DNA from: Bdellovibrionota bacterium | Lineage (GTDB): Bacteria; Bdellovibrionota; Bdellovibrionia; Bdellovibrionales; Bdellovibrionaceae | Assembly: GCA_963170155.1 (NCBI GenBank) | Contig: CAUJGP010000031.1 | Coordinates: 1-64,000, forward strand | DNA: 64,000 nt | Direction of reading: 5' to 3' | Shown here: piece by piece, positions 1 through 39,968 of the stretch | Numbering within the stretch: position 1 is the stretch's first letter | Layout of the letters: the number at the start of each line of letters is the position of its first letter | Position numbers and translations under genes: made by a program | The notes under the pieces: generated by a model | What the model saw: the letters and a program-made list of their open reading frames with translations, nothing else | Told to the model about the DNA's origin: nothing | Database searches by the model: none

Positions 1-45
1 GATGTTAAACAAAAATAGTAGCACTAAGCTAGATCAACCAGGAAG

Positions 46-89
46 TTATCCACAGATACTCGGTAAAAATAAATAAATCCTGTGGACAG
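46..89. promoter_or_regulatory. Putative pair of DnaA boxes
   Basis: Positions 46-54 read TTATCCACA, the exact DnaA-box consensus. Positions 81-89 read TGTGGACAG, whose complement CTGTCCACA is a weaker box in the opposite orientation. The 26 bases between them are largely A/T, and AT-rich sequence follows. This may be the edge of a replication origin or a DnaA-regulated promoter. No dnaA, gidA or rpmH gene lies nearby, so the assignment rests on the 9-mers alone. Confidence 0.3.
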
Positions 90-239
90 CTCAAGAAAAT
101 GAACTGATTTTCAAATTAAATCTCCGAACTGACTCTAATTAGTCGCAATAAATTATGCTTCCAAATCGGTATTTTATTGAGTCGCTATCATAAATTGAAC
201 TTTTACAATGTTGCGCTAAATAAAGATGAAATACTCACA

Positions 240-284
240 GCTCAAATCAAACAACCGTTTTTTAAACAGATGTGAGATTTGAGC
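240..284. repeat. 9-bp perfect inverted repeat
   Basis: GCTCAAATC at 240-248 is repeated as its exact complement GATTTGAGC at 276-284, around a 27-base AT-rich spacer. It lies about 40 bases beyond the stop codon of the minus-strand chelatase gene. It could be that gene's transcription end or a protein-binding site. There is no clean T-run, so a simple Rho-independent terminator is not supported. Confidence 0.25.
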
Positions 285-324
285 AAATTAATAGCGTGTA
301 TTTCAATTGAGTGGTATGGGCTGG

Positions 325-1320
325 CTATTGAGCCAAACCTATCGACAGGCTTTCTTGAACAATCCAATCAATAAGAAGAGAATCAGGGGCGAGCATTTTA
401 TGAGATATCGTATACTCAAGCCCTTGAAGTCGTTCTTTAAGACCCTTTTCAATTCCACCAGGAGCTAGTAAGACAGGCACAATCAAAGCTTTTCGATTAT
501 CTTCTAATGCCTTTTTAACAAGATCTTGAAGTTCCTTCGTTTTTCTATTTCGAATTTCATCAGGAGCATCATCTCTTAACGTAAGGACATCGATTTTGTG
601 AAAAGATCCCTTAATTTTACTTGCATGAGTTGATAGATCCTGGATCCATAAAGCATCATCCTCATCTCCATTGGGGCCATGAGCAACAAGAATTAAATTT
701 TCTTGTTCTGGTTTTTGACTGATGGCCTGAGCTCGGTTGGAGATGATTTCGCTAAGATAAGGGTGATCATTTAATGCTGTTTTAAAAACAACATTTTGAA
801 TTGTTGAGGGGATTTTCACTCGTCCTGGATCAAAAGGAAGAGGGTTTTCTTCTGAGATATGAAATTGGTATTTTTGAGCACGAATAACTTCGCTGTGATC
901 ACTGACGAAAAGAGGAACAATAACGAGTTCGCAAATAGATTCACTAGCAAGAATGTTTACGCCTTCCTGAAAGCTTTTTTGATCCCACATGCCAAAGGCT
1001 ACTTCTAGAGGGTATGGAATTTGAGGAGAAGCTTCCCCCACCATCTCTAAAATAGTGTTGTCCCATTCATTAAATGAAGTTGTGAGGTTTAGCATGTCGT
1101 TGTTTAAATCAGAGTGTGGGGGGCGGTGGCGATGTGGATTGGATGCGGGATCTCCATGGTCATGATTGGAGTTCCCATGGGCTAAAATCAAGATTCCTTT
1201 GTTTTCGTGACAGGCCTCTTGGAGTTCTTTGGTTGTATTTGCCGGAGATGAATGAGCAAAATTGAAAAATAGAAAACTACTGAAACTCATGATAAGAGTT
1301 GTAAAAAAATTTAATTTCAT
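325..1320 (-). CDS. Secreted CbiX/sirohydrochlorin-chelatase-like protein
   Basis: A 331-residue protein with an N-terminal signal peptide (about residues 1-24, ending HSS-PA). It is built from two CbiX-like halves. The first carries ILILAHG with His48, the second LILVAHG with His214. The family inserts Co, Ni or Fe into sirohydrochlorin through such histidines, but most members are cytoplasmic. Just after the first motif is a His-rich stretch (about 52-69) that could bind metal. No cobalamin or siroheme genes are nearby, so the substrate is unknown. A periplasmic metal-binding or metallochaperone role is as plausible as chelatase activity. The fold assignment is fairly secure; the function is inferred. 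Confidence 0.7.
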   Translation of the reverse strand: MKLNFFTTLIMSFSSFLFFNFAHSSPANTTKELQEACHENKGILILAHGNSNHDHGDPASNPHRHRPPHSDLNNDMLNLTTSFNEWDNTILEMVGEASPQIPYPLEVAFGMWDQKSFQEGVNILASESICELVIVPLFVSDHSEVIRAQKYQFHISEENPLPFDPGRVKIPSTIQNVVFKTALNDHPYLSEIISNRAQAISQKPEQENLILVAHGPNGDEDDALWIQDLSTHASKIKGSFHKIDVLTLRDDAPDEIRNRKTKELQDLVKKALEDNRKALIVPVLLAPGGIEKGLKERLQGLEYTISHKMLAPDSLLIDWIVQESLSIGLAQ

Positions 1321-1530
1321 ATTTAAACCATCCCATTCTTTGGCAAAAAGGAATTTTCATTTCAAAAAATCTCATCATAGTCGATGATTCGGACTAAAGT
1401 ATGTATAAAGAGAGCTGTTTGCAAATGAATTATTCATCAAATTTTTAATTGAGAAGGAATTGAAAAAATCAAAGTCGAGTTCAAGAGAGAGCCCCTAGAC
1501 ATCCACTGAGGAGGTCCTTAAAATAAAAAA

Positions 1531-2700
1531 ATGAGTCGTACACAGTGTCGTCACTTTAATGGTTATAAACCGTGCTTAAAAAGTTATGATTGTGATACTG
1601 ACTGCCAGCATTTTGAAAGACCGGATACTTCCATATTGATTGTTCATTTAGGGGCCATGGGATCGGTTTTAAGAAGCACTTCATTACTAGCATCCATTAA
1701 GAGAAAATATCCCAAAAGTTTGATAACCTGGCTTACTGAAGATTATTCTAAGCCGCTTTTAGTCAATAATTCTTTGATCGATAGAATATTAGGGTTAACG
1801 ACAAGAGATCTTTTAGTGCTGTCAGGTTTAAAGTTTGATGTCGGATTCTTTATTGATAAGTCACCAGAAATGGGTGGTCTTATAAAAATGACTCAACCAA
1901 GCCAATGTTTTGGTTTTACTAATAGCGCTGTGAATGGAGCGATTCTTCCCTTAAATTTTTCAGGGCAAGAATTATGGGAAATAGGTTTAAATAATCAAAA
2001 GAAATTTTTTGAAAATAAAAAAACAGAAATTCAATTAGTGGCAGAGATGTTGGAGCTTCCTTATCAGAGGGATGAATATATTGTTAACCTTAGTCCTGAA
2101 GAGATGATTCTTTCTGAAAAGAGGCGAAAACAGTGGTCTGAAAACGGTAAGAAAATCATCATTGGCCTTAATACGGGAACCAGTGGTGTTATCCCTCATA
2201 AAACAATGAGTACAGTGGCTTGGGGTGATTTGATAAGGATAATATTCGCTCGTTTCACTCAAAATAATTTTCAATTTCAAATAGTTCTTCTTGGTGGTGG
2301 AAAAGAAGATCATGAAAGAAACTTAGGGATAGCTCGACAGTGTTTGGGGAAACCCATAGTCGTGAGCCCAGCGCTTGCAGGATTGAGAGATGGATTAGCG
2401 AGTATTGAGGCTACAGATACGGTGATCACGGCCGATAGCCTAGGGATGCACATGGCAATTGCTTTGAAAAAATATGTTATTGCTTGGTTTGGTCCTACGT
2501 GCGCGCATGAAATAGATTTGTATGATCGGGGCGTTAAGATCGAGAGCGTTTTTGCCTGTAGCCCTTGTTGGAATCGGGAATGCTCTGTTGTGAAACCATG
2601 TAATCAATTGATTGAAATAGATCAAATCATTGATTCTCTCCTCAATTTTTTCGCGACAATACGCTCTTATCCACTGTATCAAGGTGAAGAACTCCGATAA
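1531..2700 (+). CDS. Glycosyltransferase family 9 (heptosyltransferase-like) with Cys-rich N-terminus
   Basis: A 389-residue protein. After a short N-terminal extension it has the GT9 N-domain (ILIVHLGAMGSVLRSTSLL) and the C-domain nucleotide-sugar site region (IGLNTGTSG, VLLGGGKE, ITADSLGMHMAIAL, WFGPT). The family moves ADP-heptose or similar sugars onto lipopolysaccharide core at the inner membrane. The extension holds four cysteines (6, 15, 21, 25) around the motif NGYKPC. A second cluster (CSPCWNRECSVVKPC) lies near the C-terminus, suggesting metal or Fe-S binding or paired disulfides. The start is preceded by GAGGAGGTCC. It stands alone, with no other LPS genes adjacent, so the acceptor is unknown. 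Confidence 0.8.
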   Translation: MSRTQCRHFNGYKPCLKSYDCDTDCQHFERPDTSILIVHLGAMGSVLRSTSLLASIKRKYPKSLITWLTEDYSKPLLVNNSLIDRILGLTTRDLLVLSGLKFDVGFFIDKSPEMGGLIKMTQPSQCFGFTNSAVNGAILPLNFSGQELWEIGLNNQKKFFENKKTEIQLVAEMLELPYQRDEYIVNLSPEEMILSEKRRKQWSENGKKIIIGLNTGTSGVIPHKTMSTVAWGDLIRIIFARFTQNNFQFQIVLLGGGKEDHERNLGIARQCLGKPIVVSPALAGLRDGLASIEATDTVITADSLGMHMAIALKKYVIAWFGPTCAHEIDLYDRGVKIESVFACSPCWNRECSVVKPCNQLIEIDQIIDSLLNFFATIRSYPLYQGEELR

Positions 2701-3047
2701 ATACGTTGATGTTGAGAAAGTAAAAATAAATTTTATTTTTTTATTTGAATTCAAATCTCGACCAAAGAGATAAGGACTCTATTTTTCTCAATCTGAGTCG
2801 TCTCTCGTTTTTTCAACTTTAAGACTCAGAAAGACTATGAATAAAGAATAAAATGGAAGGTGTTCTTTGAGAAATTGTTACTTGTAGTAAGAGAATATTA
2901 AGATGAAGAAATGATCTCATTTTGAGGCGAGGAGAGTCTGGTTTTTTTGCTTTCGTAGCACTGTTATTGAAGTTATGTAAAAATAAGTATTGTAACCACA
3001 GAAGATAAATGGATCTAAAAAGTTTAAAGTTGCGAAGAGCTTTTTAG
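2701..3047. other. Intergenic region, no gene seen
   Basis: About 350 AT-rich bases between the glycosyltransferase and the subtilase. I see no credible reading frame, RNA gene or strong terminator. It probably carries the promoter of the subtilase operon, but no single -35/-10 pair stands out. Confidence 0.4.
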
Positions 3048-4742
3048 ATGCAAACTCTTAGAGATTTTTGCCATCAATGGAGGTTCTTTTTGACTTTTCA
3101 ATCTCGAAGATATGGAATTCTTTTTCTTCTGTTTTTAATTGTCCTCGTGGAGGGGCAGGGTTGCAGTTATAAAAAATTTAGATCGCTCCCCACTGACGCA
3201 TCTGGAGGTGATGCGTCATTAGGAACAGGAGATCCTGACCCGTATTATGAGTACCAATGGTATCTAGGAGGTAAGACCGTTTCTTCAACAGTGACCTTCG
3301 GTGTTCCTGAGGTTTGGTACCAAAAAAATTTAGGGCAAGAAGCTCAAATTGCAATTGTTGATCCCAGTTCCATATATTTAAATCATCCTGATATTACTGA
3401 TAACAAGGAGTTAACCAAAAGTTTTAATTTTTTATCGCCAGCACGGGGAACGGATACAACTTTTTCAGGAGGTTCTAGTCATGGTTCATGTGTTGCGGGA
3501 GTGATTGGTGCCCGAGAATTAAACGGGAAAGGGATTATCGGTGTTTCACCAAGGGCTAAGATATCGGCTCGTACTACAACAGGTATTGATACTGATATTT
3601 ATGATGCCATCACCTATAAATTTGCAGAAACTGACGTTATTTCAAATAGCTATGGCCCTCCAGACAATGTTGTGGAATTGAATCAATTATATAATCAAGA
3701 TTTATTTAAACAAGGGATCAATTTGGGAATTAATAGTGGTCGAGGTGGACTTGGTACGGTGTATGTTTGGGCTGCAGGAAATGGCAGGCAGAATTCAGAT
3801 CGCAGCAACTATGACGGTTATGCTTCTCATCATGGGGTTATGAGTATTTGCTCCATTGGAATGAGTGGCTCGGTGAGTTTTTTTTCTGAGCCGGGTGCTA
3901 ATTTGTGGGTTTGCGCTCCGGGAGAAAAAGTAGTCACAACAGATTATCAAGGTTTCAATTGTTCTGATAACAGTAATAGTCCTTTAAAAGATCTACCTAA
4001 TCCAGAATACACTCAAAATTTTACAGGAACTTCGGCCGCAACGCCCTTTGTTTCTGGAGTGGTAGGGTTGCTTCTCACAAGAGCGAAGCAACTCAATAAA
4101 TCTTTGGGTTGGCGCGATGTTAAAATGATCATCGCTGAATCGGCAAGCAAACCCTCGAATATTCAATGGCAAGGGACACGAATCAAATTTAATGATGATA
4201 TTGGCTTTGGAATTATCAATGCTTTTCAAGCATTAGAGTTGTTAAAAACCTGGGTGCCTGTGGGCAATTCTCCGTGGATAGCGAGTGTCCTGGGCTCTGG
4301 ATTTTTAGGTCCAGAGTTTTCTGGATCGTTGGATGATTCTGGTGGTGGATACTTAAATATGAAAAATTTTGTCATTAATAATTCAGTTCCTCAAGATGGG
4401 ATCAGTCTCTTTCATTCTTCCATTAATTATATTGAACATGTTATCTTAGAGGTAAGATTGACTCACTCAGATCCTGGTGATCTCGAGATCAATCTTGAAA
4501 AATCAGGGATCTCTGGAGGCGGAAATCCAGTAATTAGTAAAATAACGACAGCGCATAATTGTATTGATGGTGATCAATATACGTCTTGTTCTTCGGCCTC
4601 TAACTACACTTATGAATTTGGTGTGAGTAATTTTTTAGGTGAATCTGCACAAGGAATTTGGGCTTTAAAAATTCGTGATGCACGATCTAATGGAAAAACA
4701 GGAAGTGTAGTGGGTTGGAGGTTAAAGATTTATGGACATTAA
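3048..4742 (+). CDS. Subtilisin-like (S8) serine protease with C-terminal P domain, lacking a cis prodomain
   Basis: A 564-residue exported protease. A hydrophobic segment (about 23-36) is followed by Cys39; the lipobox-like EGQGC is imperfect, so lipid anchoring is uncertain. The S8 triad is complete: Asp105 in IAIVD (followed by PSS where TGV is usual), His145 in SSHGSCVAG and Ser329 in FTGTSAATPFVSG. The oxyanion Asn245 is in WAAGN. Residues about 435-564 resemble the P/proprotein-convertase domain, ending WALKIRDARSNGKTGSVVGW. Only about 60 residues separate Cys39 from the catalytic Asp, and they look like the start of a mature subtilase (YYEYQWYLGG). The usual propeptide is therefore missing. 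The next gene, overlapping by 11 bases, appears to encode it. Confidence 0.88.
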   Translation: MQTLRDFCHQWRFFLTFQSRRYGILFLLFLIVLVEGQGCSYKKFRSLPTDASGGDASLGTGDPDPYYEYQWYLGGKTVSSTVTFGVPEVWYQKNLGQEAQIAIVDPSSIYLNHPDITDNKELTKSFNFLSPARGTDTTFSGGSSHGSCVAGVIGARELNGKGIIGVSPRAKISARTTTGIDTDIYDAITYKFAETDVISNSYGPPDNVVELNQLYNQDLFKQGINLGINSGRGGLGTVYVWAAGNGRQNSDRSNYDGYASHHGVMSICSIGMSGSVSFFSEPGANLWVCAPGEKVVTTDYQGFNCSDNSNSPLKDLPNPEYTQNFTGTSAATPFVSGVVGLLLTRAKQLNKSLGWRDVKMIIAESASKPSNIQWQGTRIKFNDDIGFGIINAFQALELLKTWVPVGNSPWIASVLGSGFLGPEFSGSLDDSGGGYLNMKNFVINNSVPQDGISLFHSSINYIEHVILEVRLTHSDPGDLEINLEKSGISGGGNPVISKITTAHNCIDGDQYTSCSSASNYTYEFGVSNFLGESAQGIWALKIRDARSNGKTGSVVGWRLKIYGH

Positions 4743-5373
4743 GCTTATTGCAGCTCGATTCTGTCTTACTCAATTAATCTGGATTGCTTGTTGGGTTATT
4801 TTGAGCCCTTTAGAAGCACGATCTCAAAGCTCTTCCTCGGATTACCACTGGTATCATGAAGGAACACAAGTGAAGCTACAAATTATTCCGAATCAAATAG
4901 TTTCTTTTGATGATCATTCTTCAAATAATGAGGATATGATCCGTTCCTTGAAACCCCAGAAAATAAAAAAACTTACTGGTGGAGCACAATTGATGGAGTT
5001 GAGTGCCAAATCTTTTTCAAATTATTTAGCAGATGGCAGTCAGTTCTTAAAGAAGGGGTCTCCTCTTTTTAAGGAAGGTGGCTTTATTAAAGCTTTACCG
5101 GGAGGGATCATTGTTAATTTCAAAAAAGGCGTGACAGAAGCAGAGGTACAACAACTCTGTGATCGTCTTGGTCTTAAAATTAAAAAGCAATATTCTCAGG
5201 GTTGGGACTCCCCCATGTGGCTGTTAGAATCCCCGCCAGGCTTGGAGAGTTTGAGATTAGCCAATACGCTTGTAGAAAATCATGGAATTATTATATTAAA
5301 AGCAAGGCCTAATTTTTGGCAACCCATTAATACTAAAGAATTGAAATCTAGTGATCAAATTCGATCAAATTAA
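4732..5373 (+). CDS. Secreted protein resembling a detached subtilase prodomain
   Basis: A 213-residue protein with a signal peptide (about 1-31, ending EARS). Its start overlaps the 3' end of the subtilase gene by 11 bases, which points to translational coupling. The C-terminal half (about 120-202) has the pattern of N-terminal prodomains of S8 proteases. It contains a strand LPGGIIVNFKKGV, a helix TEAEVQQLCDRLGL, a strand WLLESPPG, a helix ESLRLANTLVE and a final strand ending KARPNFW, where cis prodomains usually read AEPN. I infer that it folds or inhibits the upstream protease in trans in the periplasm. Pattern recognition only; no alignment was run. Alternatively it is an unrelated inhibitor of the same protease. 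Confidence 0.6.
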   Translation: MDIKLIAARFCLTQLIWIACWVILSPLEARSQSSSSDYHWYHEGTQVKLQIIPNQIVSFDDHSSNNEDMIRSLKPQKIKKLTGGAQLMELSAKSFSNYLADGSQFLKKGSPLFKEGGFIKALPGGIIVNFKKGVTEAEVQQLCDRLGLKIKKQYSQGWDSPMWLLESPPGLESLRLANTLVENHGIIILKARPNFWQPINTKELKSSDQIRSN

Positions 5374-5433
5374 ATGGACTCTTCATCTTTGATTGGATTT
5401 TTTTCAAAGACTCTTATTCATTCCGTATAAGAT

Positions 5434-7035
5434 TTAGAACTTACTATCCATAATCATTTTGAGGGTTTTTGCTCCGGGGGTTTGTGATTGCGCGAGTTTG
5501 TTTGATTGGAGATGTAAAAAGTTTTTTGCGTTAGAAGTGGCCTGAGCAATATTATTTCTGTGTAGATAAAGAAAAAAACCATTACGAACAGCTAAGATAG
5601 AATTTTCTCCCATGGCTAAAAGATATAAAGCTATTTTAGCTTCAGACTCTTCTATTTTTCTCTGTAAAGCCGCTGATTCCTCTGGATTGTTCGTGTTTTT
5701 TTGTGCCTTTGACTTTAATTGAGAAAGGTGAGGGACTTCTTTCAATATGGTGTATGCTTCTTCTGCTAAACTATAGGAGATCATTGCCAAAGAGGCTAAC
5801 ACCACGCCATCAATTGCAACACCAAGGGTTGTCGGAAACAGCCTCAGAGTGGCTCCAGAGGCGCAGGCCAACAAATAATCTATTTTAGTCGCCGATTCAG
5901 GAGCATGAGGAATGACCACTTTTTTTGTTGAAGAGGTTTCTTTTGTTTTCATTGCTTCACCCAATTCGCAGGCAAAACTTGTTTTATTGAGTAGTGAAGA
6001 GTAGAGGGCACGACTCATATTAAGGTAAGATGTATTAACGGATTCTAAAGTGAATTTAGCAGTGAGCCCCACACCACACCCAATAGCAGCTTGCAAAGAA
6101 ATCGCCCATAAGGCATTTGTGGTATTAATAAGATGAGAAGCGCTTGTCGCTGCGGCCGTTGTCATCGCTGAAGTCAGTGCAACCCTTACCATAGCAGCTA
6201 ATCCCGCTGAGGCTGTTGCTGTATTGACGGTAAAATCAATTAAAGCATTATTAGCCATGGTTTCCATGCGATTTTCTTGATTACGGTTCAGAAGCTGGGC
6301 CCAAATAATTTCAATAGAGCCGAGCATTTGAGCCTTTGTCGTTTCAGTTTGAATATATTGATTGGCTTTTTCTACTAAATCAGAGTTCATATTAGGTTTT
6401 GTTTTTTTGGATAAACTTGAAAAAATCAAAGGGGATTCTTCTTTAAAAAGATTCAAAATGGGTTGTTGGCGTTCTTGAAAGTATTTAACGATTTCAACTT
6501 CTAAATTTCTTTTGGCTAAAGTAAATTCCAAATCATTGACAAAGCCTAAATGATCCATGGCCCGGTGATAAAGTATTAAATCAGCAAAAACAGTAAATTT
6601 TTTGTACGATAGATTTTGAATTCCGATGGTTTTAAAAATAAGTTTTCTCAGATAGAGTTCAGCTATGAGGCCATGGAGATGACTGGGGAGGGGTTCCGTT
6701 TTAAATGATGGCGAATATTTGCTTAAAACAAGGTTTAACTTGGTATTAAATTCTGTTTCTTTAAGTTCGAGAGAGATAGATTCTAAAGCATAACGCGTAT
6801 CAGAGATAAGCTGTCTGTTTTTGGAGCTAAGGGCTTTATAGTTCATACAGACAGGTTCTTTTCGATCACTATGAGGAGTTGCAGGGGAGGGGTTCATCGC
6901 AGTCTTCATTGATGCCGTCTCATTTTTTGCGGTGGAGGCTTTGGTCATCGGAGAGATAGGAGATGAAAAAACTAAAGAAATAATTGAGAGATGAATGGCC
7001 AAAAAAATGGAAATTGATTTTTTAAAACTTTTCAC
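5434..7035 (-). CDS. Large secreted or membrane protein of unknown function
   Basis: A 533-residue protein I do not recognise. It begins at GTG, eight bases after AAAGGA. A signal peptide (about 1-25) is followed by a Ser/Thr/Ala-rich stretch and a mainly helical region. Two Ala/Thr-rich hydrophobic blocks (about 265-325 and 385-425) could be membrane segments or buried helices. Residues about 440-475 look like a short coiled coil. No catalytic motif is apparent. It is convergent with the prodomain-like gene, with about 60 bases between them. Confidence 0.6.
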   Translation of the reverse strand: MKSFKKSISIFLAIHLSIISLVFSSPISPMTKASTAKNETASMKTAMNPSPATPHSDRKEPVCMNYKALSSKNRQLISDTRYALESISLELKETEFNTKLNLVLSKYSPSFKTEPLPSHLHGLIAELYLRKLIFKTIGIQNLSYKKFTVFADLILYHRAMDHLGFVNDLEFTLAKRNLEVEIVKYFQERQQPILNLFKEESPLIFSSLSKKTKPNMNSDLVEKANQYIQTETTKAQMLGSIEIIWAQLLNRNQENRMETMANNALIDFTVNTATASAGLAAMVRVALTSAMTTAAATSASHLINTTNALWAISLQAAIGCGVGLTAKFTLESVNTSYLNMSRALYSSLLNKTSFACELGEAMKTKETSSTKKVVIPHAPESATKIDYLLACASGATLRLFPTTLGVAIDGVVLASLAMISYSLAEEAYTILKEVPHLSQLKSKAQKNTNNPEESAALQRKIEESEAKIALYLLAMGENSILAVRNGFFLYLHRNNIAQATSNAKNFLHLQSNKLAQSQTPGAKTLKMIMDSKF

Positions 7036-7266
7036 CGGAATTTTCCTTTAATCTTAAACGAAATTTATAAATAAATCCGGATTAGGGCCTAACATTATAT
7101 TTGATTTCTAACAATAGTGTTTGTAAGTCTTCCACTAAAAAAACTAACTTTTATTTATTTAATGTAAAACTTTTCTTGAGATTGCACTTTATGACTCTTT
7201 AGAATCATCGAGAAAGATTTCATCGGGTCAAAGATGAGAATTAATTCATTTAAAAGACCAAGATTG

Positions 7267-8040
7267 TCACCGTCTTTTTTGTAAAGCTTTCACAATCTTA
7301 CGAGTTACAAAGCGGGGAATGAATCGCGCGATCTGCACGAGCATCTGATTCTTAAAACCATGAATTGCCACAACACTTTCTTTCATCATGGAATCATAAC
7401 CATATTCTGCGACTTCTTTTGATGTGGGTTGTTTCATCATTTTGAGAATGGCAAGATTAGAAAAATTGGCTGCTTTTTGAAAGCCAGAGAGGGTAGGGCC
7501 TGGGCAGAGAGTTGTGACAGACACTCCAGAGCCTTGTAATTCTTCAGAAAGCGCTTCAGAAAAGTTTAAGACATAGGCTTTTGTCGCGTAATAAACAGAC
7601 ATGAAGGGTCCTGGTTGAAAAGCCGCGGTGCTTGCCACATTTAATATTTTTCCATTTCTTCTTTGAATCATCGAAGATAGAAAAAAGTGGGTTAATTCCG
7701 TTAAAGAGGTAATATTGAGTTGGATCATGTGTGTTTGCTTTTCCAGTGAAGAGTGCGTGAAGAATCCATGATCACCAAAGCCTGCATTATTGATGAGAAT
7801 TTGAACTTCCCATCCTTGTTCGTTGATATGTTGATAAAGCTGTTTTGCAGAACCGACGATGCCGAGATCTTGAGGAATAACCTCTACGTGCACTTTGTTT
7901 TGATTTCGTATTTCATGAGCGAGGTGATGAAGAGCTTCTTCAGAGCGCGCCGTTAAAATAAGATTATGTCCGTGTTGAGCACATACTTTCGCTAGTTCAT
8001 ATCCTATACCACTGCTGGCCCCTGTAATTAAAGTGTACAT
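7267..8040 (-). CDS. Short-chain dehydrogenase/reductase
   Basis: A 257-residue classical SDR enzyme using NAD(P)H. The cofactor motif TGASSGIG is at residues 7-14, the NNAG structural motif is near 85, and the catalytic Ser and YxxxK are in the central region (NVASTAAF, then YYATKAY). The C-terminus is basic (RFVTRKIVKALQKRR), as in membrane-associated members acting on lipids or ketones. The substrate cannot be read from sequence. AAGGAAG lies five bases before the ATG. The TPR gene upstream ends 11 bases before this start, so the two are probably co-transcribed. Confidence 0.88.
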   Translation of the reverse strand: MYTLITGASSGIGYELAKVCAQHGHNLILTARSEEALHHLAHEIRNQNKVHVEVIPQDLGIVGSAKQLYQHINEQGWEVQILINNAGFGDHGFFTHSSLEKQTHMIQLNITSLTELTHFFLSSMIQRRNGKILNVASTAAFQPGPFMSVYYATKAYVLNFSEALSEELQGSGVSVTTLCPGPTLSGFQKAANFSNLAILKMMKQPTSKEVAEYGYDSMMKESVVAIHGFKNQMLVQIARFIPRFVTRKIVKALQKRR

Positions 8041-8051
8041 ATGAGCTTCCT

Positions 8052-9251
8052 TTATAATCCTAATTTGATGTTTTTATTTTTAGAATACAGGGCAAAGGCT
8101 GACCTAAACTCTTCTTTGAGTGCTGAAAGTGATGCGGGAGAGCGAGAAAGCTCTTTTGAGGGGAGACATTTGGATGTTATTTGAGAATATTTAGTTTCCA
8201 GTGAGTTTTCTTTCCTATGGCGTAGGAGATCTGTCGCTCTTTTAAGGTGCTTGAGTGTTTGATGGGGATTCACTTTACAGGCATTCTTATAGGCGTTAAG
8301 CGCTGATTCATAGTGTTTGAGTTCAAAGTTAACAAGCGCGAGTCCAATGTGAGCTCGAAAAGAGTTAGAATCGCCTTGAGTGGCTTGAAGAAAAAGCGTT
8401 GCAGCCTTGGGAAGATTTTTTTGCTGAATCAAAAAATCAGCGTAATTGGAGGCCGCAATTTCAGATCGCGGAAATTCAGTTGTTATTTTCTTGAGTAGAG
8501 CTTCTGCTTTTAAAGTTTGTCCTTCATTATTTTCAACGAGTGACAAGTAAATATAATTTTCGGGGTTATCACCATCCATATTGATCGCTTCCGTACAGAG
8601 TTTTCGTGCATTCACGAAATAACCATCGATAGTATTTCTTCGGCAAAGGTTAGCAAGTATTTCATTTGATTTTCCAAATCGTTTGAGCATATCTCCTAGA
8701 AGAATTCTTAGTTCATAAAAATTATGGTATTTTTCATAGGCAGCAAGAAGCCCATCATAGGCTGGTCTATGGTTGGAGTTAATCTCGATGGCATTTTTAT
8801 AAGCCGCTAGAGTATTGGCCGATAGGCGAGGATCACTTTTTTCGAGGGACTTTTTAAAATAAAACTGGCCCAACATGACAAAGCCTTGAGGGTATTTGGG
8901 ATAATTAGAAGTGAGTTGTTCTAGAAATTTTAACTCATTTGTTTGATCATCAAGCTTATGATAAGTTTTTGCGAGCAACGCCAGGCTTTCTTGTGGAAGC
9001 TTTTCTGCTTTGGTTTTCAATACATCAACGGTTTGTTCATATTTTTTATTATCAAAGTATTTTTGAGCTAAAGTGTGTCTCGCTTTGAGATTTTCAGGAT
9101 TGGATTCCAACTCTATCTTAAGAACTTCAACTTCGTTTGTTTCAGTATTTGCTAGGGATTTTAATGTGATACAAAAAACAAGAAGCATGATCATCGGGCT
9201 GCCTAAAAAAGGGTTTAAGAAATAGAAATATAATTTTTTAAATGAACTCAT
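8052..9251 (-). CDS. Exported tetratricopeptide-repeat protein
   Basis: About 399 residues from the ATG at 9251. I chose this start because it begins MSSFKKLYFYF and leads into a hydrophobic signal segment ending SLANTE. A longer frame up to 9338 adds 29 residues with no signal character. The rest is a tandem array of TPR-like helical pairs (for example KARHTLAQKYFDNKKYEQ, AHIGLALVNFELKHYESALNAY), a scaffold for protein-protein contacts. It was probably in the periplasm. It is divergent from the pilin-like gene, with about 120 bases between them, and is followed closely by the SDR gene. The partner is unknown. Confidence 0.8.
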   Translation of the reverse strand: MSSFKKLYFYFLNPFLGSPMIMLLVFCITLKSLANTETNEVEVLKIELESNPENLKARHTLAQKYFDNKKYEQTVDVLKTKAEKLPQESLALLAKTYHKLDDQTNELKFLEQLTSNYPKYPQGFVMLGQFYFKKSLEKSDPRLSANTLAAYKNAIEINSNHRPAYDGLLAAYEKYHNFYELRILLGDMLKRFGKSNEILANLCRRNTIDGYFVNARKLCTEAINMDGDNPENYIYLSLVENNEGQTLKAEALLKKITTEFPRSEIAASNYADFLIQQKNLPKAATLFLQATQGDSNSFRAHIGLALVNFELKHYESALNAYKNACKVNPHQTLKHLKRATDLLRHRKENSLETKYSQITSKCLPSKELSRSPASLSALKEEFRSAFALYSKNKNIKLGL

Positions 9252-9371
9252 ACTAAATGTTCTATTGTCGATAGTTGTTAAGGTGGCTGACGTCCAATTT
9301 TCACTATTTTCAAAACTAAACTTAGTTGAAAATAACATTTTACCCCCATTATATGCTAAACTCTAAAATGA

Positions 9372-10316
9372 ATGATGGATCTTAGGATTATTAAATCATA
9401 TTTAAAACCTCTTTGTGAAATCGAAATTTTACGTTTATTTTGTAAACAAGTGATAAGTCTTCAACTCTGTAGAAGTCAGGATTCACAGAGGGATCGTCGT
9501 TGTCATGACGCTCAGAGGGGACAGGCCTTGGTTGAGTATGTTTTGTTGTTAGTGATCGTTGTAACACTCTTTTATGGTCTTTCCAAAACTTTCTTTGAAC
9601 CCCTACAAAGGTATGGAACCGGTGTTTTTACAAATACAATTGCTTGTTCCTTTGAATATGGGCAACTTCCTTCTGAAATTATTTCAGAAGATGGTTGTGA
9701 ATCACGCTATCAAGGAAGTGTTGCCACGAATAACTCTTCCTCTCAAAGTAGGGGAAATAATTCACAAAGCAAATCACAAGACACTCAAAAGTCAGAGCAG
9801 ACTCAGGATTCAACGTCATCCTCATCAGGGAGTTCGGGTGGTGGAGAAAGTAGTAGAAGTGGACGAGGAGCCACGACCATTCGATCGAGAGGAGAGACCC
9901 TCCAATTGGGTCGAAATTCTGGGGCAGAAGCTCGAAGTACAACTCGTCTTCAATCTGAAGACAGTGAGGTCGCAGGACCATTGAGCTTTGATCCGAGTGA
10001 TTCTAGTTATCGGGGAAGACGGTTGAGAAGACCTATGGTGAAGCCCATTCGTGGGGAACTGGAGACAATTGTTTTAAATAAGAAAAAAGCAGGAGAGGTG
10101 ACTCGAAGTATTGCCAGTACAGTCGATGGATCTGAGAAAAAAGTGAAAAAATTCACCGTAAACACGAAAGCAACCGATAAACAACAAGATGCAGCATCCG
10201 ATGCGCCCTGGGATATTTATAAAATATTGCGGATCATTCTTATTATTTTAATGATCTTAGCGATTCTTTTATTTGTCTTTTTTCAACTTTCTCAAATTCG
10301 AAAGAGCAGCGCTTAG
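9372..10316 (+). CDS. Flp/TadE-like type IVb prepilin protein with Ser-rich stalk and C-terminal membrane helix
   Basis: A 314-residue protein. Residues 49-70 read RGQALVEYVLLLVIVVTLFY, the class IVb prepilin signature. A basic leader ends in Gly50, Glu55 and Tyr56 fall at +5/+6 after the predicted cut, and a hydrophobic helix follows. Unlike short Flp pilins it continues into a Ser/Gln-rich linker (about 120-165) and an Arg-rich region. It ends in a second strongly hydrophobic helix (about 285-307). No tad/rcp export genes or prepilin peptidase are in the window. It may be a minor pilin, a pseudopilin or an envelope-spanning tether. No strong ribosome-binding site precedes the ATG, so the start is uncertain. 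Confidence 0.6.
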   Translation: MMDLRIIKSYLKPLCEIEILRLFCKQVISLQLCRSQDSQRDRRCHDAQRGQALVEYVLLLVIVVTLFYGLSKTFFEPLQRYGTGVFTNTIACSFEYGQLPSEIISEDGCESRYQGSVATNNSSSQSRGNNSQSKSQDTQKSEQTQDSTSSSSGSSGGGESSRSGRGATTIRSRGETLQLGRNSGAEARSTTRLQSEDSEVAGPLSFDPSDSSYRGRRLRRPMVKPIRGELETIVLNKKKAGEVTRSIASTVDGSEKKVKKFTVNTKATDKQQDAASDAPWDIYKILRIILIILMILAILLFVFFQLSQIRKSSA

Positions 10317-10566
10317 TCGACCTCAAAATCCTTTTAAATTATGCTCTTTGGAAGCTCTCTAGAAAAGCGAGATTTATGGATTTCAGGAGCTTTGGCTTTG
10401 GAGTGCGGAGAAAAAGCCATACTTAGAATGAACATGTAATTTTTTTAAAATAACCAGAGGATAATATTTTGTTAAGAGTATAAAAAAATCACGTTTGAAA
10501 AAAAGAACTAGCTTTGACAAAAATAGTCTGTTACCTCGTTTTTTCACATTGTTTCGAGGGGTTATA

Positions 10567-10941
10567 GTGGGGAATGTATTTGAGTTTAATAGACAAGTGA
10601 CGTTCGATCTCGAATCAGCTAGGCAAATGTTGCAACTGGTATATCGAATTACTTCTGAGGTTGACCAGCAATTTCAGGATTTATCGAGTCGAATTACAAT
10701 GGCTCAAAGTGCTGCCAACCAGGAGCTAGTCCTTGAATTAGAAGGTCAGGTTCAGTCTTTGATTCAGCGATGGGAAGGGAAAATGATCAAGCTAGGGCTT
10801 GAACCAAAAGGTTTATGGCTTGTTGATTTTAATACTGGAAGTGGATTTTACTGCTGGAAGTACCCAGAGCTAGACATTAAATTTTGGCATGCTTACAAGG
10901 ATGGCTTTACCGGCCGTAAGCCTATTGATGCAGATTTATAA
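10567..10941 (+). CDS. DUF2203-family protein
   Basis: About 124 residues. The GTG start at 10567 follows GAGGGG by about five bases and gives the usual family length and N-terminus (VTFDLESARQML). A longer TTG start at 10495 adds an atypical basic leader. The C-terminal block is characteristic: GLWLVDFN, YCWKYPELDIKFWHAYKDGFTGRKPI. The family is small, cytoplasmic and uncharacterised. The conserved Trp, His and Asp/Glu residues hint at ligand or metal binding, but no function is established. Confidence 0.82.
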   Translation: MGNVFEFNRQVTFDLESARQMLQLVYRITSEVDQQFQDLSSRITMAQSAANQELVLELEGQVQSLIQRWEGKMIKLGLEPKGLWLVDFNTGSGFYCWKYPELDIKFWHAYKDGFTGRKPIDADL

Positions 10942-11312
10942 CCAGTTAAACAATATCGCTCATGAGCTTTTGCTAGACTGAATCCCACGACCTCTTCTTC
11001 ACCACACCCACACCCCACCCCACGCTCTTATTTATGGGCGTGGCCAACCTCGTCTTTATTTTTGAACTCATAAAACTCTGGTATTATATCTTTCGTTGTT
11101 AAGTGGATAGATGAATCCAATCCACGAAAAAAGTTCTACTTCTGTCAAAGTTTTGAACATAATTAAAATATATTTATATTTCAGCTACTTACCGTTTTCC
11201 TTCTTTTGGCACGATTTTCGATAGAAAGAAGTTGAAGGTGACTCTTTTAGAGCAAAAGAGCTTATGAAGGGAGTCCAACACAGAGCTTTCATGAAAAGTT
11301 CTCGGAGGATTT
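10942..11312. other. Intergenic region with a GC-rich hairpin
   Basis: About 370 bases without a credible gene. An unusually C-rich run (10980-11020) leads into a hairpin with 6-bp GC-rich arms, CCACGC (11020-11025) and GCGTGG (11038-11043), around a 12-base AT loop. It is not followed by a clean T-run. It may end transcription of the DUF2203 gene or be a regulatory element. The remainder is AT-rich and probably contains the promoter of the next gene. Confidence 0.35.
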
Positions 11313-13187
11313 ATGAGACGGTGGAAAACAAAAAGCGAAAAAATTTTAATGGGAGGATTACTCTTGCTACTTGTTGCTAGCTCCTTACCATGGAGTGAAC
11401 AGGCAACGAATAATGGCTTTTCTACTATTTCTGGTCATGAAAGTTTAAGAGGAGAAAGTGAAGGGATGATCGTTGGAGAATCGGTTGCCCATCTTTCAGC
11501 ACAAGAGCGCCCTCATCCTGGTCCAAAAAGTGATTCTAAGAACAAAGAAAAATTACCACCGCCGCAACAAGAAAAAAAGACCCCTGAGCGTAAGGGTGAT
11601 GTCGATAAAGATAATGATAAATTTATAGGAATTGTCCTTGGCCCAGAAGGTAAGTCTTATAGTGTTGAGGCTGACTGTAGTAGCAATAAAGATAATCAAT
11701 CCTGTGAATTTACAGCTCGTGAAACACAGACGGAGGCAACAAGTTGTGATAACTGCACTTATAACGCTATTACCGGACATTATTCGACTGCTGGCGCTGT
11801 GAACCGACAGGCCATGTTACATCACATTGGTAAAGAAATAGAGGCGATCTATAAGAATCAAGGAAAAGATAAAAAAGACATCGTTACAAAAGGATCTTCA
11901 AAGAAGCCACAAAAAAGAGATCGTCGTGATGATGATTACGACGACGAGGATGCCATTGAAAAAATTTGTTCCAAAAAAGGGTATAAAAATAAAAAAAGTG
12001 AACATTATACTTCTTGCGCTGTTAAAGAGATGATGCGTTTGGCGACCTTATCTGACAAAGATGAGCGTCCTACGGGAGATGAGATGACAGATCTTATAAA
12101 AGATCATGTTTATGAAACTTTTTTAACTCAGATGAAAGAAGGATCAGGTCCGGAAGCTTCTCGTGAAGAGAAATCGCAAATGAGAAAGGCTGATAGGGAT
12201 ATTGAGCGCTTAATCGAAAAATTGGGTGGTAGTCGTTATAGAGAAGCACGCGAAACTTTATCTGAGATTAAACGATTTGCTTTGGATGAACGAGCAAAAA
12301 ATACAGCTAAGATTTTAAGTGAAGCAAACTCTTTGGCTGCTATGGGTGATTATGTGAACGCGGCATTATTATTGAATGAATTTCAAAAAGAACGAACTTC
12401 TATGACAGGTTTATTAAATGCAGATCTTTCTGATATGCAAACAGTTTATTCCAATATGATTAAAGAGAACGGGTTTTCTCGCTCCAATGCAATGAGCGAA
12501 TTCAAGACGCTTTATTACCAGCCCTACAATAATGTTAATAGTAGGTTGTGGAGCAGTAACCCAACTTGGGATTACAGTTCTACTACGAATAGATCTCTAA
12601 GATCTGGCGGATTTGTCGCCCCCGGACAACAATCGCCTCCGATATCTGGAATTCGAGGTGGTACCTCAGGAAATTACAATGGGCGAGGAGGAGTCTCTAA
12701 TCCCAATGGCCCCCCTGTCGCCGGACAACAAGGGCATCTTGGACCTCATGGAGTTGCTCCAATCACGGGGTCGTCACAACAGTACCCTGTTAACAACCCT
12801 TCAGCCAACAACGGGAATTATGGGAGAAATTTTGTTCCAGGACAACAATCATCGCTCTACAGTCCTGCAGGTGCGTCCTACAACAACGGAACTTCTATCT
12901 ATTGGCCAAACAATGTCAATACTTGGGGAAGAACGCCACAGCAGCAGACATGGATTCCAGGGACACCTTCACCAGCAACGCCAGGTATTGCTGGTAACCC
13001 CTATGCTTCCTCCTACCCCTCTTATTACACAGGCTACACCAACCACCTTTACAACAGTGGGACCTCGCCTTACCCCACAGCAGGCTGGGGAACAACAACA
13101 ATACCAGGTGGTGCCTCCTCATTTGCTCCAATGCAGCCAGGTCTTTATGGACAGCAGCAAGGTTCTGTAGCAAGACCTCGTTTTTAA
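11313..13187 (+). CDS. Large secreted protein with disordered, Gly/Asn/Gln/Pro/Tyr-rich C-terminus
   Basis: A 624-residue protein of unknown function. A signal peptide (about 1-31) precedes a charged, disordered region (about 60-100). There follow a Cys-containing segment with two close cysteines (SCDNC), an acidic patch (DRRDDDYDDED) and a helical domain (about 215-370) with coiled-coil-like heptads. From about 425 to the end it is low complexity, with spaced APGQQ, VAGQQ and VPGQQ units and many Tyr, Asn and Ser residues. This resembles adhesive or matrix-forming proteins. It stands alone. A surface or matrix role is a guess from composition. Confidence 0.65.
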   Translation: MRRWKTKSEKILMGGLLLLLVASSLPWSEQATNNGFSTISGHESLRGESEGMIVGESVAHLSAQERPHPGPKSDSKNKEKLPPPQQEKKTPERKGDVDKDNDKFIGIVLGPEGKSYSVEADCSSNKDNQSCEFTARETQTEATSCDNCTYNAITGHYSTAGAVNRQAMLHHIGKEIEAIYKNQGKDKKDIVTKGSSKKPQKRDRRDDDYDDEDAIEKICSKKGYKNKKSEHYTSCAVKEMMRLATLSDKDERPTGDEMTDLIKDHVYETFLTQMKEGSGPEASREEKSQMRKADRDIERLIEKLGGSRYREARETLSEIKRFALDERAKNTAKILSEANSLAAMGDYVNAALLLNEFQKERTSMTGLLNADLSDMQTVYSNMIKENGFSRSNAMSEFKTLYYQPYNNVNSRLWSSNPTWDYSSTTNRSLRSGGFVAPGQQSPPISGIRGGTSGNYNGRGGVSNPNGPPVAGQQGHLGPHGVAPITGSSQQYPVNNPSANNGNYGRNFVPGQQSSLYSPAGASYNNGTSIYWPNNVNTWGRTPQQQTWIPGTPSPATPGIAGNPYASSYPSYYTGYTNHLYNSGTSPYPTAGWGTTTIPGGASSFAPMQPGLYGQQQGSVARPRF

Positions 13188-36629: not shown

Positions 36630-37715
36630 ATGCAAACTTTGAAAGAAGACAGTTTTGAAATAAGAAAACAAGATCATATTCGTTATGCCCTTAGCGAAGA
36701 TTCTCAGTCGTTGGTTCATGAGGATTGGGAGCGCATTTTTTTAATTCCAGAGGCCCTTCCTGAGATTAATTTTGAAGAAGTTGAATTAGGAGTGAATTCT
36801 TTAGGGCGAGAATGGAAAACTCCTTTTTTTGTAAGTTCTATGACAGGTGGCCATTCTGAATCTTTTAAAATCAATTCTATTTTGGCAGAAGCCTGTGAGG
36901 CTAAAGAATGGTTGTTGGGGGTAGGGTCCCAGAGAAGAGAAATTGATGATTTGCAGGCCAGCCAAGAGTGGTATCAGCTCCGGAAAAAATATCCCAAGGT
37001 ATTATTGGCCTCCAACATTGGATTATCACAGTTAATACAAGCACCTTTAGAAAAAATTCAAAAATTAGTAGAGCATACGGAGGCTAAGGCCTTATTTGTG
37101 CATACCAATCCCCTTCAAGAATGCCTTCAGATGGAAGGAACCCCTCACTTCAAGGGAGGATTCAAGGCCCTTGAATCCATCGTGAAAAAAATGGAAGTCC
37201 CTATTGTTATCAAAGAGGTTGGTTCAGGAATATCAACAACTACGATTCAACGCTTAAGCAATATTGGTATTTCAGCTGTAGATGTGAGCGGTCGAGGAGG
37301 AACTCATTGGGGGCGAGTTGAAGGATTGCGTTCTCCCCAGAAAAGCCTCAAAGCTCAAGCCGCTGTTACTTTCAAGGATTGGGGACTTTCAACGCCAAAA
37401 GCTTTATATTTATGGGCTCAAGAGGCGCGGCTTTTTGAAAATATTCATTCCTCCTCGCAAAACGTTTCAAATATAGAAGTATGGGCTTCAGGAGGAGTCC
37501 GAAATGGTTTACAGGCAGCAAAGAGCTTGGCTTTAGGGGCACAGAGAGTTGGGTTAGCTCGGCCTTTTTTGGAGGCGGCTCTGGTAGGTCCAGAGGCGGT
37601 TATGGAATTAATAGATTTATTAGAATATGAATTGAAAATCAGTTTGTTTTGTTTAGGTATAAAAAAGATCAGTGAGATGAAGCAGCGAAAGGTTTGGTTA
37701 TGGGAGAAGGTATGA
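36630..37715 (+). CDS. fni: Type 2 isopentenyl-diphosphate isomerase
   Basis: A 361-residue FMN/NADPH-dependent enzyme interconverting IPP and DMAPP. Family motifs: RKQDHIRYAL near the N-terminus, FFVSSMTGGH, LLGVGSQR, VIKEVGSGI and the FMN/phosphate region VDVSGRGGTHWGRVE, then ASGGVRNG. Length is normal. It is the first gene of a tightly packed mevalonate operon; its stop overlaps the start of the HMG-CoA reductase gene as ATGA. Confidence 0.95.
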   Translation: MQTLKEDSFEIRKQDHIRYALSEDSQSLVHEDWERIFLIPEALPEINFEEVELGVNSLGREWKTPFFVSSMTGGHSESFKINSILAEACEAKEWLLGVGSQRREIDDLQASQEWYQLRKKYPKVLLASNIGLSQLIQAPLEKIQKLVEHTEAKALFVHTNPLQECLQMEGTPHFKGGFKALESIVKKMEVPIVIKEVGSGISTTTIQRLSNIGISAVDVSGRGGTHWGRVEGLRSPQKSLKAQAAVTFKDWGLSTPKALYLWAQEARLFENIHSSSQNVSNIEVWASGGVRNGLQAAKSLALGAQRVGLARPFLEAALVGPEAVMELIDLLEYELKISLFCLGIKKISEMKQRKVWLWEKV

Positions 37716-39016
37716 ATGAACCCTTTCAAGGATTTTCAAAACTCACCAGACAAGAGCGTTATCAAAAGCTATTGAGTACAGGTGTGTTGAGTCGAGAAGA
37801 AGTGGAATACCTAGAGCATGGGGGTCTTAAAGACCTTTCTCTTGGAGAGAAATTTATAGAAAATGTGATTGGGTATTTTCAGCTTCCTTTGGGGGTTGCG
37901 ACTCATTTTCGCATTGATGGAAAAGATATTTTGATTCCTATGGCCGTGGAAGAAACCTCCATTGTGGCGGCGGCTAGTAAAACTGCAAAATGGATTCGCG
38001 AATCGGGTTTTATCCAAACTCGAGTGGATGGCCATGAAATTATCGGTCAAATTCAGATTGCGGTTTTACATAAATATGATTTGTTTTCAAAAGTCATATT
38101 AGAGCACAAACTTCGCTTGATAGAAATGGCAAATCGAGAAGTTGCGTTTGGTTTAGTCAAAAGAGGGGGCGGGGTGACGGATATCAACGTCCGTGTTTTA
38201 GACCGCCCTGATGGTTTAAAAATGGGAATTGTACATGTAATGGTCAATTCCTGTGATGCTATGGGTGCGAATGTTATTAATCAAGTTTGTGAGTTTTTAA
38301 AAGAGCCCATAGAGAGTTTGACCGGAGAGAAAGTAACGATGTGTATTCTCTCTAACCTTGTCACCAGTAAAATCACAAAGGCAGAAGTGGTATTGGAAAA
38401 AGTGGACCCGGAGTTGGCCGCAAAAATAGAAGAGGCGTCTCTGTTTGCTGAAATCGATCCCTATCGGGCCGCCACAAACAATAAGGGTGTGCTGAATGGC
38501 ATTGATCCGATTCTCATTGCGACCGGAAACGATTGGCGAGCTGTTGAGGCTGGAGTGCATGCTTATGCTGCTCGTAAGGGAGCCTACTCTTCATTGACTC
38601 GTTGGTTTCGGGAGGGCAGCCGTTTAGTGGGTCGATTTGAAGCGCCCCTCATTGTCGGCACGGTAGGAGGAGTGACCACTCTCCATCCCACTGCGAAAAT
38701 GGCCATGAAGATTTTGCAGGTTGAGTCTGCCAATGAGCTTTCTCGCATTATTGCTGCGGTGGGGTTGGTTCAAAACTTAGGGGCCCTAAAGGCTCTAACA
38801 ACAGTGGGTATAATTGAAGGTCACATGAAATTACATATTAAAAATTTAACTTTGGGAGCCGGAGCTGAAGAAAAAGAAATACCTTATGTGCAGAAACGCT
38901 TAGAAGAAATTTTAGCATTGAGAAAAAGAATCTCTTTGAGTAATGCCATTGAGGTTTTGCGAGAGTTGAGACTTCAGCGTTCCTCTAAACCAGATCATGA
39001 GACTCACCATGTTTGA
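37712..39016 (+). CDS. mvaA: Hydroxymethylglutaryl-CoA reductase (class II type)
   Basis: About 434 residues from the ATG at 37712, which overlaps the fni stop as ATGA; an upstream ATG at 37694 is possible. It makes mevalonate from HMG-CoA. Motifs include ENVIGYFQLPLGVA, the active-site Glu region AVEETSIVAA, VNSCDAMGANVINQVCE and GRFEAPLIVGTVGG. The length and absence of a membrane domain fit the bacterial class II enzyme. No HMG-CoA synthase gene is in the window, so its substrate must come from elsewhere. Confidence 0.94.
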   Translation: MNEPFQGFSKLTRQERYQKLLSTGVLSREEVEYLEHGGLKDLSLGEKFIENVIGYFQLPLGVATHFRIDGKDILIPMAVEETSIVAAASKTAKWIRESGFIQTRVDGHEIIGQIQIAVLHKYDLFSKVILEHKLRLIEMANREVAFGLVKRGGGVTDINVRVLDRPDGLKMGIVHVMVNSCDAMGANVINQVCEFLKEPIESLTGEKVTMCILSNLVTSKITKAEVVLEKVDPELAAKIEEASLFAEIDPYRAATNNKGVLNGIDPILIATGNDWRAVEAGVHAYAARKGAYSSLTRWFREGSRLVGRFEAPLIVGTVGGVTTLHPTAKMAMKILQVESANELSRIIAAVGLVQNLGALKALTTVGIIEGHMKLHIKNLTLGAGAEEKEIPYVQKRLEEILALRKRISLSNAIEVLRELRLQRSSKPDHETHHV

Positions 39017-39968
39017 GTTATCTCTTGGATCCAAAGTTTTTTTATTGGGTGAGTACCAGGTTCTCCAAGAAGGCACGGCTTTTCTTGCCATTCTTGAGCC
39101 GCGTTTTAAATTAGTGGTAAAAGAAGGCATTGGAAGGCTCGGAGGAATTCCTACAGAGAGTCCGGCTTCAAAGTATCATCAGCAAAATCAGGAATTTTTT
39201 AAAGAATGGGATTTAGATTTTTTGGACCCTCATCAAGGAGCTGGGGGATTTGGGGCTTCAACAGCTCAGATAGGACTTTTGCAGGGTTTGAAGGAAGGTT
39301 ATGAGGCCATTCGAACTCATTCTCAAGTGGAATTCGATTTAAAAAAAATTCATCGCAAGTATTTGGAGCTTGTTCAGCCGGAGCAAGGGCCTTCTCCCAG
39401 CGGAGCTGATTTATTGAGTCAATTTCAAGGAGGATTGATTGAACTTAATATTCAATCGGGTCGAATACAAAAACAAGCATGGCCTTTTGCGGATATCCAG
39501 GTTTATTTTTTTAGAACTGGAAAAAAACAAGCCACTCATGAGCATTTAAAAAAGATCAAAATAAAAAATAAACATTATTTATCTGAAGAAAGTTCGAATC
39601 AATCTCATCTGGAGGATCCTGGTCAGAGTGTGGATGATTTGGTGATGGTTTATAATAAGGCTATAGAGAGCTTTCACCATTGTGATAGGGATTTATTCAC
39701 TCAATCCATCCAAGATTACCACAAAGAACTTGATAAAAGAGGCTGGGTAGCTCCAGAAACGATGGATTGGCTGAGCAAAGTTCAGAAATTGAATGGGGTT
39801 TTGGCGGCTAAAGGTTGTGGAGCGATGGGTGCTGATGTCATTGCGGTAGTGGCAAAAAAAGATTGTGCCGATGATGTGATTCTTGGCGGAGAGTCTTTGG
39901 GATTGCAGTTTGTTGGTAACCTCGATCAAAGAACAGAAGGCTTTACTTATCGATGGGAGGAGTTGTGA
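39009..39968 (+). CDS. mvaK2: GHMP kinase, probable phosphomevalonate kinase
   Basis: About 319 residues from the ATG at 39009, which gives the family N-terminus MFELSLGSKVFLLGEYQVL; an ATG at 38997 adds four residues. The ATP-binding GHMP loop is GAGGFGASTAQIG. PSPSGADLLSQFQGGLI resembles the phosphomevalonate kinase SGxD region, and the C-terminal Gly motif is AAKGCGAMGADV. It is assigned as phosphomevalonate kinase because the other GHMP kinase of the operon looks more like mevalonate kinase. The two could be exchanged. Starts within the end of mvaA. Confidence 0.8.
   Translation: MFELSLGSKVFLLGEYQVLQEGTAFLAILEPRFKLVVKEGIGRLGGIPTESPASKYHQQNQEFFKEWDLDFLDPHQGAGGFGASTAQIGLLQGLKEGYEAIRTHSQVEFDLKKIHRKYLELVQPEQGPSPSGADLLSQFQGGLIELNIQSGRIQKQAWPFADIQVYFFRTGKKQATHEHLKKIKIKNKHYLSEESSNQSHLEDPGQSVDDLVMVYNKAIESFHHCDRDLFTQSIQDYHKELDKRGWVAPETMDWLSKVQKLNGVLAAKGCGAMGADVIAVVAKKDCADDVILGGESLGLQFVGNLDQRTEGFTYRWEEL

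Follow-up and report, generated by a model that had tools for sequence, protein, structure and literature searches.

The window, a 64,000-nucleotide stretch of Bdellovibrionota DNA, carries two overlapping genes on its forward strand between positions 3048 and 5373. The first (3048–4742) encodes a kexin/furin-like S8 protease of 564 amino acids with a P domain and no cis prodomain, as judged from the open reading frame, Pfam, sequence alignment and fold matching. Pfam places the S8 catalytic domain (Peptidase_S8, E = 9.5e-32) at residues 98–367 (3339–4148) and the P (proprotein convertase) domain (P_proprotein, PF01483, E = 9.9e-11) at residues 462–561 (4431–4730). In the alignment the catalytic triad is intact (D105 at 3360–3362, H145 at 3480–3482 and S329 at 4032–4034), as is the oxyanion residue N245 (3780–3782), and Pfam and alignment thus agree with the full triad and P domain described in an earlier, sequence-only reading of this DNA. 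After the catalytic Asp the protein reads VDPSS where VDDG is usual. Asp206 (3663–3665) and Asp256 (3813–3815) align with furin Asp258 and Asp306, which we take to be the S1-pocket residues that form an acidic pocket for a basic P1 residue, and by this alignment such a pocket appears to be present in the window protease. Furin and kexin were the closest solved sequences in a PDB sequence search, with Aeromonas sobria ASP lower in the list. By fold, the protease best matched Kex2, furin and ASP, the top match being Kex2 (2id4, TM-score 0.75 on the target).

An N-terminal cis propeptide, expected of S8B kexin/furin-like proteases, was absent from the window protease. The export segment (3048–3164) ends at Cys39 (VEGQGC), which may be lipidated within a probable non-canonical lipobox, and the S8 domain starts at residue 98, leaving the roughly 60 intervening residues that the earlier reading had pointed out. 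In nine other S8 proteins of the same genome that were scanned with Pfam, the S8 domain starts later, at residues 122–256, and three of the nine have a Fervidolysin_NPro match. The missing cis prodomain is therefore a trait of the window protease and not of the genome.

The second gene (4732–5373, forward strand) begins within the first, with an overlap of 11 bases (4732–4742), and encodes a putative trans-acting prodomain protein of 213 amino acids, an assignment that draws on the open reading frame, AlphaFold2, Foldseek and hhalign. Both reading frames and their overlap had been described correctly from the letters. The small protein has a signal peptide-like N-terminus at about residues 1–30 (4732–4821), with a predicted helix at residues 3–23, followed in its N-terminal half by a predicted module (4840–5076) and in its C-terminal half by a prodomain module at residues 118–193 (5083–5310). 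It then runs through a conserved end motif, PNFWQPINTK (5308–5337), in which Lys202 is the P1-like residue, into a tail of 11 further residues, ELKSSDQIRSN (5338–5370), that is missing in most relatives and may be trimmed off after Lys202. Beyond the pair, a convergent gene on the reverse strand (5434–7035) encodes an exported protein of 533 amino acids that matches no family in Pfam or NCBIfam above the cut-off.

The nature of the small protein was assessed from both predicted structure and sequence profiles. The AlphaFold2 model (pLDDT 82) shows a tandem of prodomain-type modules, and Foldseek matched it to the stand-alone propeptide-like inhibitor POIA1 with a probability of 1.00, although the E-values of the fold matches were weak (0.02), as is usual with small common folds. 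Because of these weak values, the prodomain assignment rests more on the sequence profile. In hhalign, the family profile aligned with the N-terminal cis prodomains of single-gene S8 proteases (97.9% probability, E = 3.2e-13) over a stretch running from SPVF to PNFW. The C-terminal module is, judging by this profile, a subtilase prodomain homologous to the cis prodomains of other S8 enzymes, which bears out the earlier view that this half of the protein is prodomain-like; a prediction lacking such a fold had been named as evidence against that view, and the prediction went the other way. Against Pfam, the small protein gave a sub-threshold match to PF22148 (Fervidolysin_NPro-like; E = 0.014, 16.2 bits against a gathering score of 21), and weak matches to the same Pfam family were seen in 4 of 13 relatives (best E = 0.00059). 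L046 scored 20.6 bits. The small protein would thus be a double prodomain-like protein whose N-terminal half is predicted to form a second module of the same topology. No significant alignment of the N-terminal module with cis prodomains was found by hhalign, and its proposed homology rests on the predicted fold together with a visible Y-W-Y-x-G segment. A PDB sequence search with the small protein and its profile returned chance matches only.

To place the pair in a wider context, relatives of the small gene were sought across the phylum and beyond. Thirteen family members were found in 12 of the 369 phylum genomes searched, all 13 directly after a kexin-like protease, so the pair that the sequence-only reading had proposed to look for does recur; it is rare and scattered across the phylum, and within the window's own family it was found in only one other searched genome. 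Scanning genome contigs and searching near the matches added members from Pseudomonadota, Nitrospinota and Myxococcota, giving 44 non-redundant relatives in these three phyla and Bdellovibrionota, many of them from metagenome-assembled genomes. Flanks could be read for 42 of the 44, and in 41 of these a kexin-like protease without a prodomain adjoins the small gene, which lies downstream of the protease in 40 cases and upstream in one (L134, genome G570). The 40 downstream members share the strand of the protease and 39 lie within about 150 bases of it, with L164 about 0.6 kb away; L153 is a long open frame whose matched part lies downstream. An identical 11-base overlap was seen in several relatives (e.g., L034, L035 and L039). 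The remaining readable case is L130 in genome G421, where the prodomain gene is unlinked and lies between YgfZ-like and NAD-synthetase-like genes, and two kexin-like proteases of the paired type are found on a different contig. Since this unlinked prodomain accompanies two proteases elsewhere in the genome, one trans-prodomain may be able to serve several enzymes. Among the partner proteases, 15 of the 18 that were read carry a Cys at the lipobox position, and for this reason the enzyme may be a lipoprotein and its prodomain soluble.

The C-terminal end of the small protein is conserved. Counting the P of the PNWW-like motif as position one, the tenth residue is a Lys or Arg in 42 of the 44 members. 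It is also the last residue in 38 of the 44, as in a propeptide bound as product; the window protein has Lys202 there and then continues for 11 residues. A cis propeptide would be cleaved at this site. Both S1 Asp residues are kept in 35 readable pairs, and in all 35 the small protein has the basic residue. Both are lost in four pairs, of which L028 and L046 lack the basic residue (the small protein of L046 ends in Leu) and L133 and L137 keep Arg. The association between basic residue and S1 Asp gave a Fisher p of 0.008, a value uncorrected for phylogeny or shared ancestry. In the first 18 pairs the P1/S1 coupling had looked perfect; L133 and L137, which came in with the larger set, depart from it, and the relation is now regarded as partial. 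Because the basic residue and the S1 Asp co-vary in part, placement of the small protein's C-terminus in the S1 pocket has partial support.

Phylogenetic analysis of the proteases separated paired and single-gene forms. Some S8 proteases encoded by a single gene (e.g., L139, L140 and L156–L159) carry this prodomain type in cis at their N-terminus, and these fall outside the kexin-like group in the tree. As the same prodomain type heads these single-gene enzymes, the small protein is by descent a detached prodomain, and the cis forms are not the direct ancestors of the pair. Single-gene fusions had been put forward as worth searching for, and relatives with a cis prodomain as evidence against a detached one; such forms do exist, but in distant S8 groups and not among the closest relatives. 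In a first tree, 38 paired proteases and the two of G421 formed one group (support 98), adjoined by a group of P-domain proteases from the phylum without such a neighbour (support 99). A second tree did not recover the paired proteases as a distinct, well-supported clade, so a single origin for them is no more than possible. Among the paired proteases, the one in the window sits on a very long branch (1.31), and with this branch, VDPSS in place of VDDG and the extended tail of its partner, it could be an altered form.

The second, sister group differs from the paired proteases in several respects. Its members have no cis prodomain and intact triads, and one S1 Asp is mostly lost. It includes a large clade of P-domain S8 lipoprotein-like proteases from the same phylum (L083–L122, e.g., L083, L085 and L088), mostly without a neighbouring prodomain gene, and ASP-like proteases lie in the same clade: L184 and L198, from two Gammaproteobacteria and with ASP as best PDB match, fall in the second group with support 100. 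A few members of this clade (L084, L093, L119 and L121) are followed by a small overlapping open reading frame of 206–228 amino acids with a different sequence, possibly an ORF2-like partner. The idea that all closest relatives need a partner of the kind seen in the window was rejected on account of this clade, which lacks a cis prodomain and mostly lacks such a neighbour; some relatives would then fold in another way.

The principle of a trans-acting prodomain is not new, being known for ASP and ORF2 of Aeromonas, the one arrangement of this type with a good earlier description. A 2022 survey of subtilases named ASP as the exception to the rule of folding by a cis propeptide (PMC9549277), and the final residue of ORF2 is a Lys positioned at the catalytic serine (PMC5638518). 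Like the window pair, the ASP/ORF2 system (PDB 3wqb; PMC5638518) consists of a kexin-like S8 protease with a P domain and no propeptide, a chaperone/inhibitor gene just downstream in an operon-like arrangement, and a basic (Lys) C-terminus on the partner, placed at the catalytic center in ORF2. The two systems differ in that the window protease lies outside the strongly supported clade holding the two ASP-like proteases (L184 and L198), and in that the window partner is predicted to be a double module. The small-protein profile gave no significant match to ORF2 in the PDB (3wqb_B), with a very distant relation possible, and 3wqb_B was absent from the top 50 fold matches of the small protein. 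The proteases L184 and L198 have small downstream genes of their own, and hhalign found no match between the small-protein profile and these partners. The partner of L198 ends in AAEPDVVQWEETK and so shares with the window family the ten-residue spacing that leads to a final Lys, with no significant match between the profiles. On the best reading, the pair works like ASP/ORF2 with a partner of a different family and with proteases outside the ASP-type clade. No description of this partner family was found in a literature search of open papers.

Other known systems share parts of this arrangement. The stand-alone inhibitors of MEROPS family I9 (POIA1, PBI2, SPI-1, TgMIC5 and SUB1-ProM; PMC6993865) resemble the small protein in being separate proteins with the subtilase propeptide fold, and trans action is theirs; however, they are single modules whose targets own a prodomain, and they have no operon partnership with a prodomain-less enzyme. 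Cis double prodomains (Fervidolysin_NPro-like, PF22148; L139, L156, L157 and L159) share the homologous C-terminal module and a similar N-terminal Y-W-Y-x-G segment, but are joined to the catalytic domain in one polypeptide, of which they are the N-terminus. By description, PopC/PopD of Myxococcus xanthus (PMC6434023) is alike in that a subtilisin-like protease is restrained by a separate partner protein, and differs in that PopC lacks a signal peptide and PopD controls secretion.

We consider it highly probable that the pair is a split proprotein convertase in which the small protein serves as an obligate trans-acting prodomain, both folding chaperone and product-like inhibitor. S8 propeptides are generally folding chaperones and inhibitors of their enzymes. 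The first gene would produce a kexin-like protease that lacks a propeptide and is anchored at the surface or in the envelope, and the second would supply that propeptide as a separate exported protein made up of two prodomain-like modules. Following export, the C-terminal module would pack on the catalytic domain and aid its folding, and the C-terminal Lys or Arg, as the sequence coupling suggests, would occupy the acidic S1 pocket as a product-like P1 residue and inhibit the enzyme until degradation or release of the small protein. For the window protein, the 11-residue tail after Lys202 would probably first be cut off by the protease itself. The chaperone and inhibitor roles are proposed by analogy with ORF2 and with S8 propeptides in general, and build on the established split, recurrence, cis-prodomain homology, end motif and partial S1 coupling. 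A single-chain AlphaFold2 fusion of protease and small protein, joined by reading through the stop codon (TAAG=G), had a pLDDT of 66.6 and gave no confident docking.

The small protein could alternatively be an inhibitor only, like POIA1, yeast PBI2, TgMIC5 or SUB1-ProM, guarding the cell against the protease, which would fold independently. Within the prodomain class POIA1 is the solved structure that fits it best, separate propeptide-like inhibitors with no chaperone role toward an enzyme lacking a prodomain have been described (PMC6993865), and the sister clade apparently does without a neighbour of this kind. Known inhibitor-only proteins, however, target proteases that keep their own prodomain, which all readable partners here lack, and a partner nearly always in the same operon fits a 1:1 need in folding, making this explanation unlikely. 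We give far less weight to the idea that the small protein serves chiefly as a convertase substrate, being a secreted proprotein in which the basic C-terminus is the mark of processing. The conserved Lys/Arg end would suit kexin-type cleavage, but the gene itself stops at this residue in 38 of the 44 members, so no processing is required for that end, and both the predicted fold and the homologues that occur in cis are those of prodomains. It is similarly very improbable that the 60 or so residues after the signal form a minimal cis prodomain and that the neighbouring gene has a different role; a short segment does precede the catalytic domain, but in relatives it is low-complexity or Ser/Gly-rich, differs in length, or gives way to other domains resembling fibronectin-type or RCC1-type repeats, with no conserved fold.

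A split proprotein convertase with a trans-acting prodomain is the preferred explanation. The sequence-only reading had proposed that a detached prodomain acts in trans on the product of the preceding protease gene, and that part is strongly supported by the adjacency of the genes, the cis homology, the C-terminal Lys/Arg and the partial S1 link. Its further suggestions, separate control of protease activity and a role in predation, were not supported. With overlapping reading frames in what appears to be a single operon, the two genes look co-translated, which suggests coupled synthesis and leaves separate control unsupported; many relatives belong to lineages that are not known to be predatory, and no finding points toward predation. 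A scan for promoters and terminators at the pair gave results at chance level, and positions 1–12000 of the window held no Rfam match.

More tentatively, a lineage of bacterial kexin-like proteases may have dropped its built-in propeptide and come to rely on a separately encoded, diffusible one. Because the ASP lineage is the sister group of this one and neither has a cis prodomain, the split could be ancestral to the two, the partners having since diverged past recognition or moved; we hold this scenario to be possible but somewhat doubtful. The family represents a second set of partners, unrelated in sequence to ORF2, beside kexin-like proteases in at least four phyla and with homologues in cis. 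It allows one to ask by what route and how frequently a prodomain becomes separated from its enzyme, and what sets the specificity of a trans-prodomain, given that the C-terminal Lys/Arg and the S1 pocket co-vary in part. As natural two-part proteases, such pairs could have their activity set by adding or withholding the partner.

Elsewhere in the window, a cluster on the forward strand (36630–41841) reads like genes of the mevalonate pathway, including a type 2 IPP isomerase, HMG-CoA reductase, kinases and a decarboxylase, as judged from the translations only.
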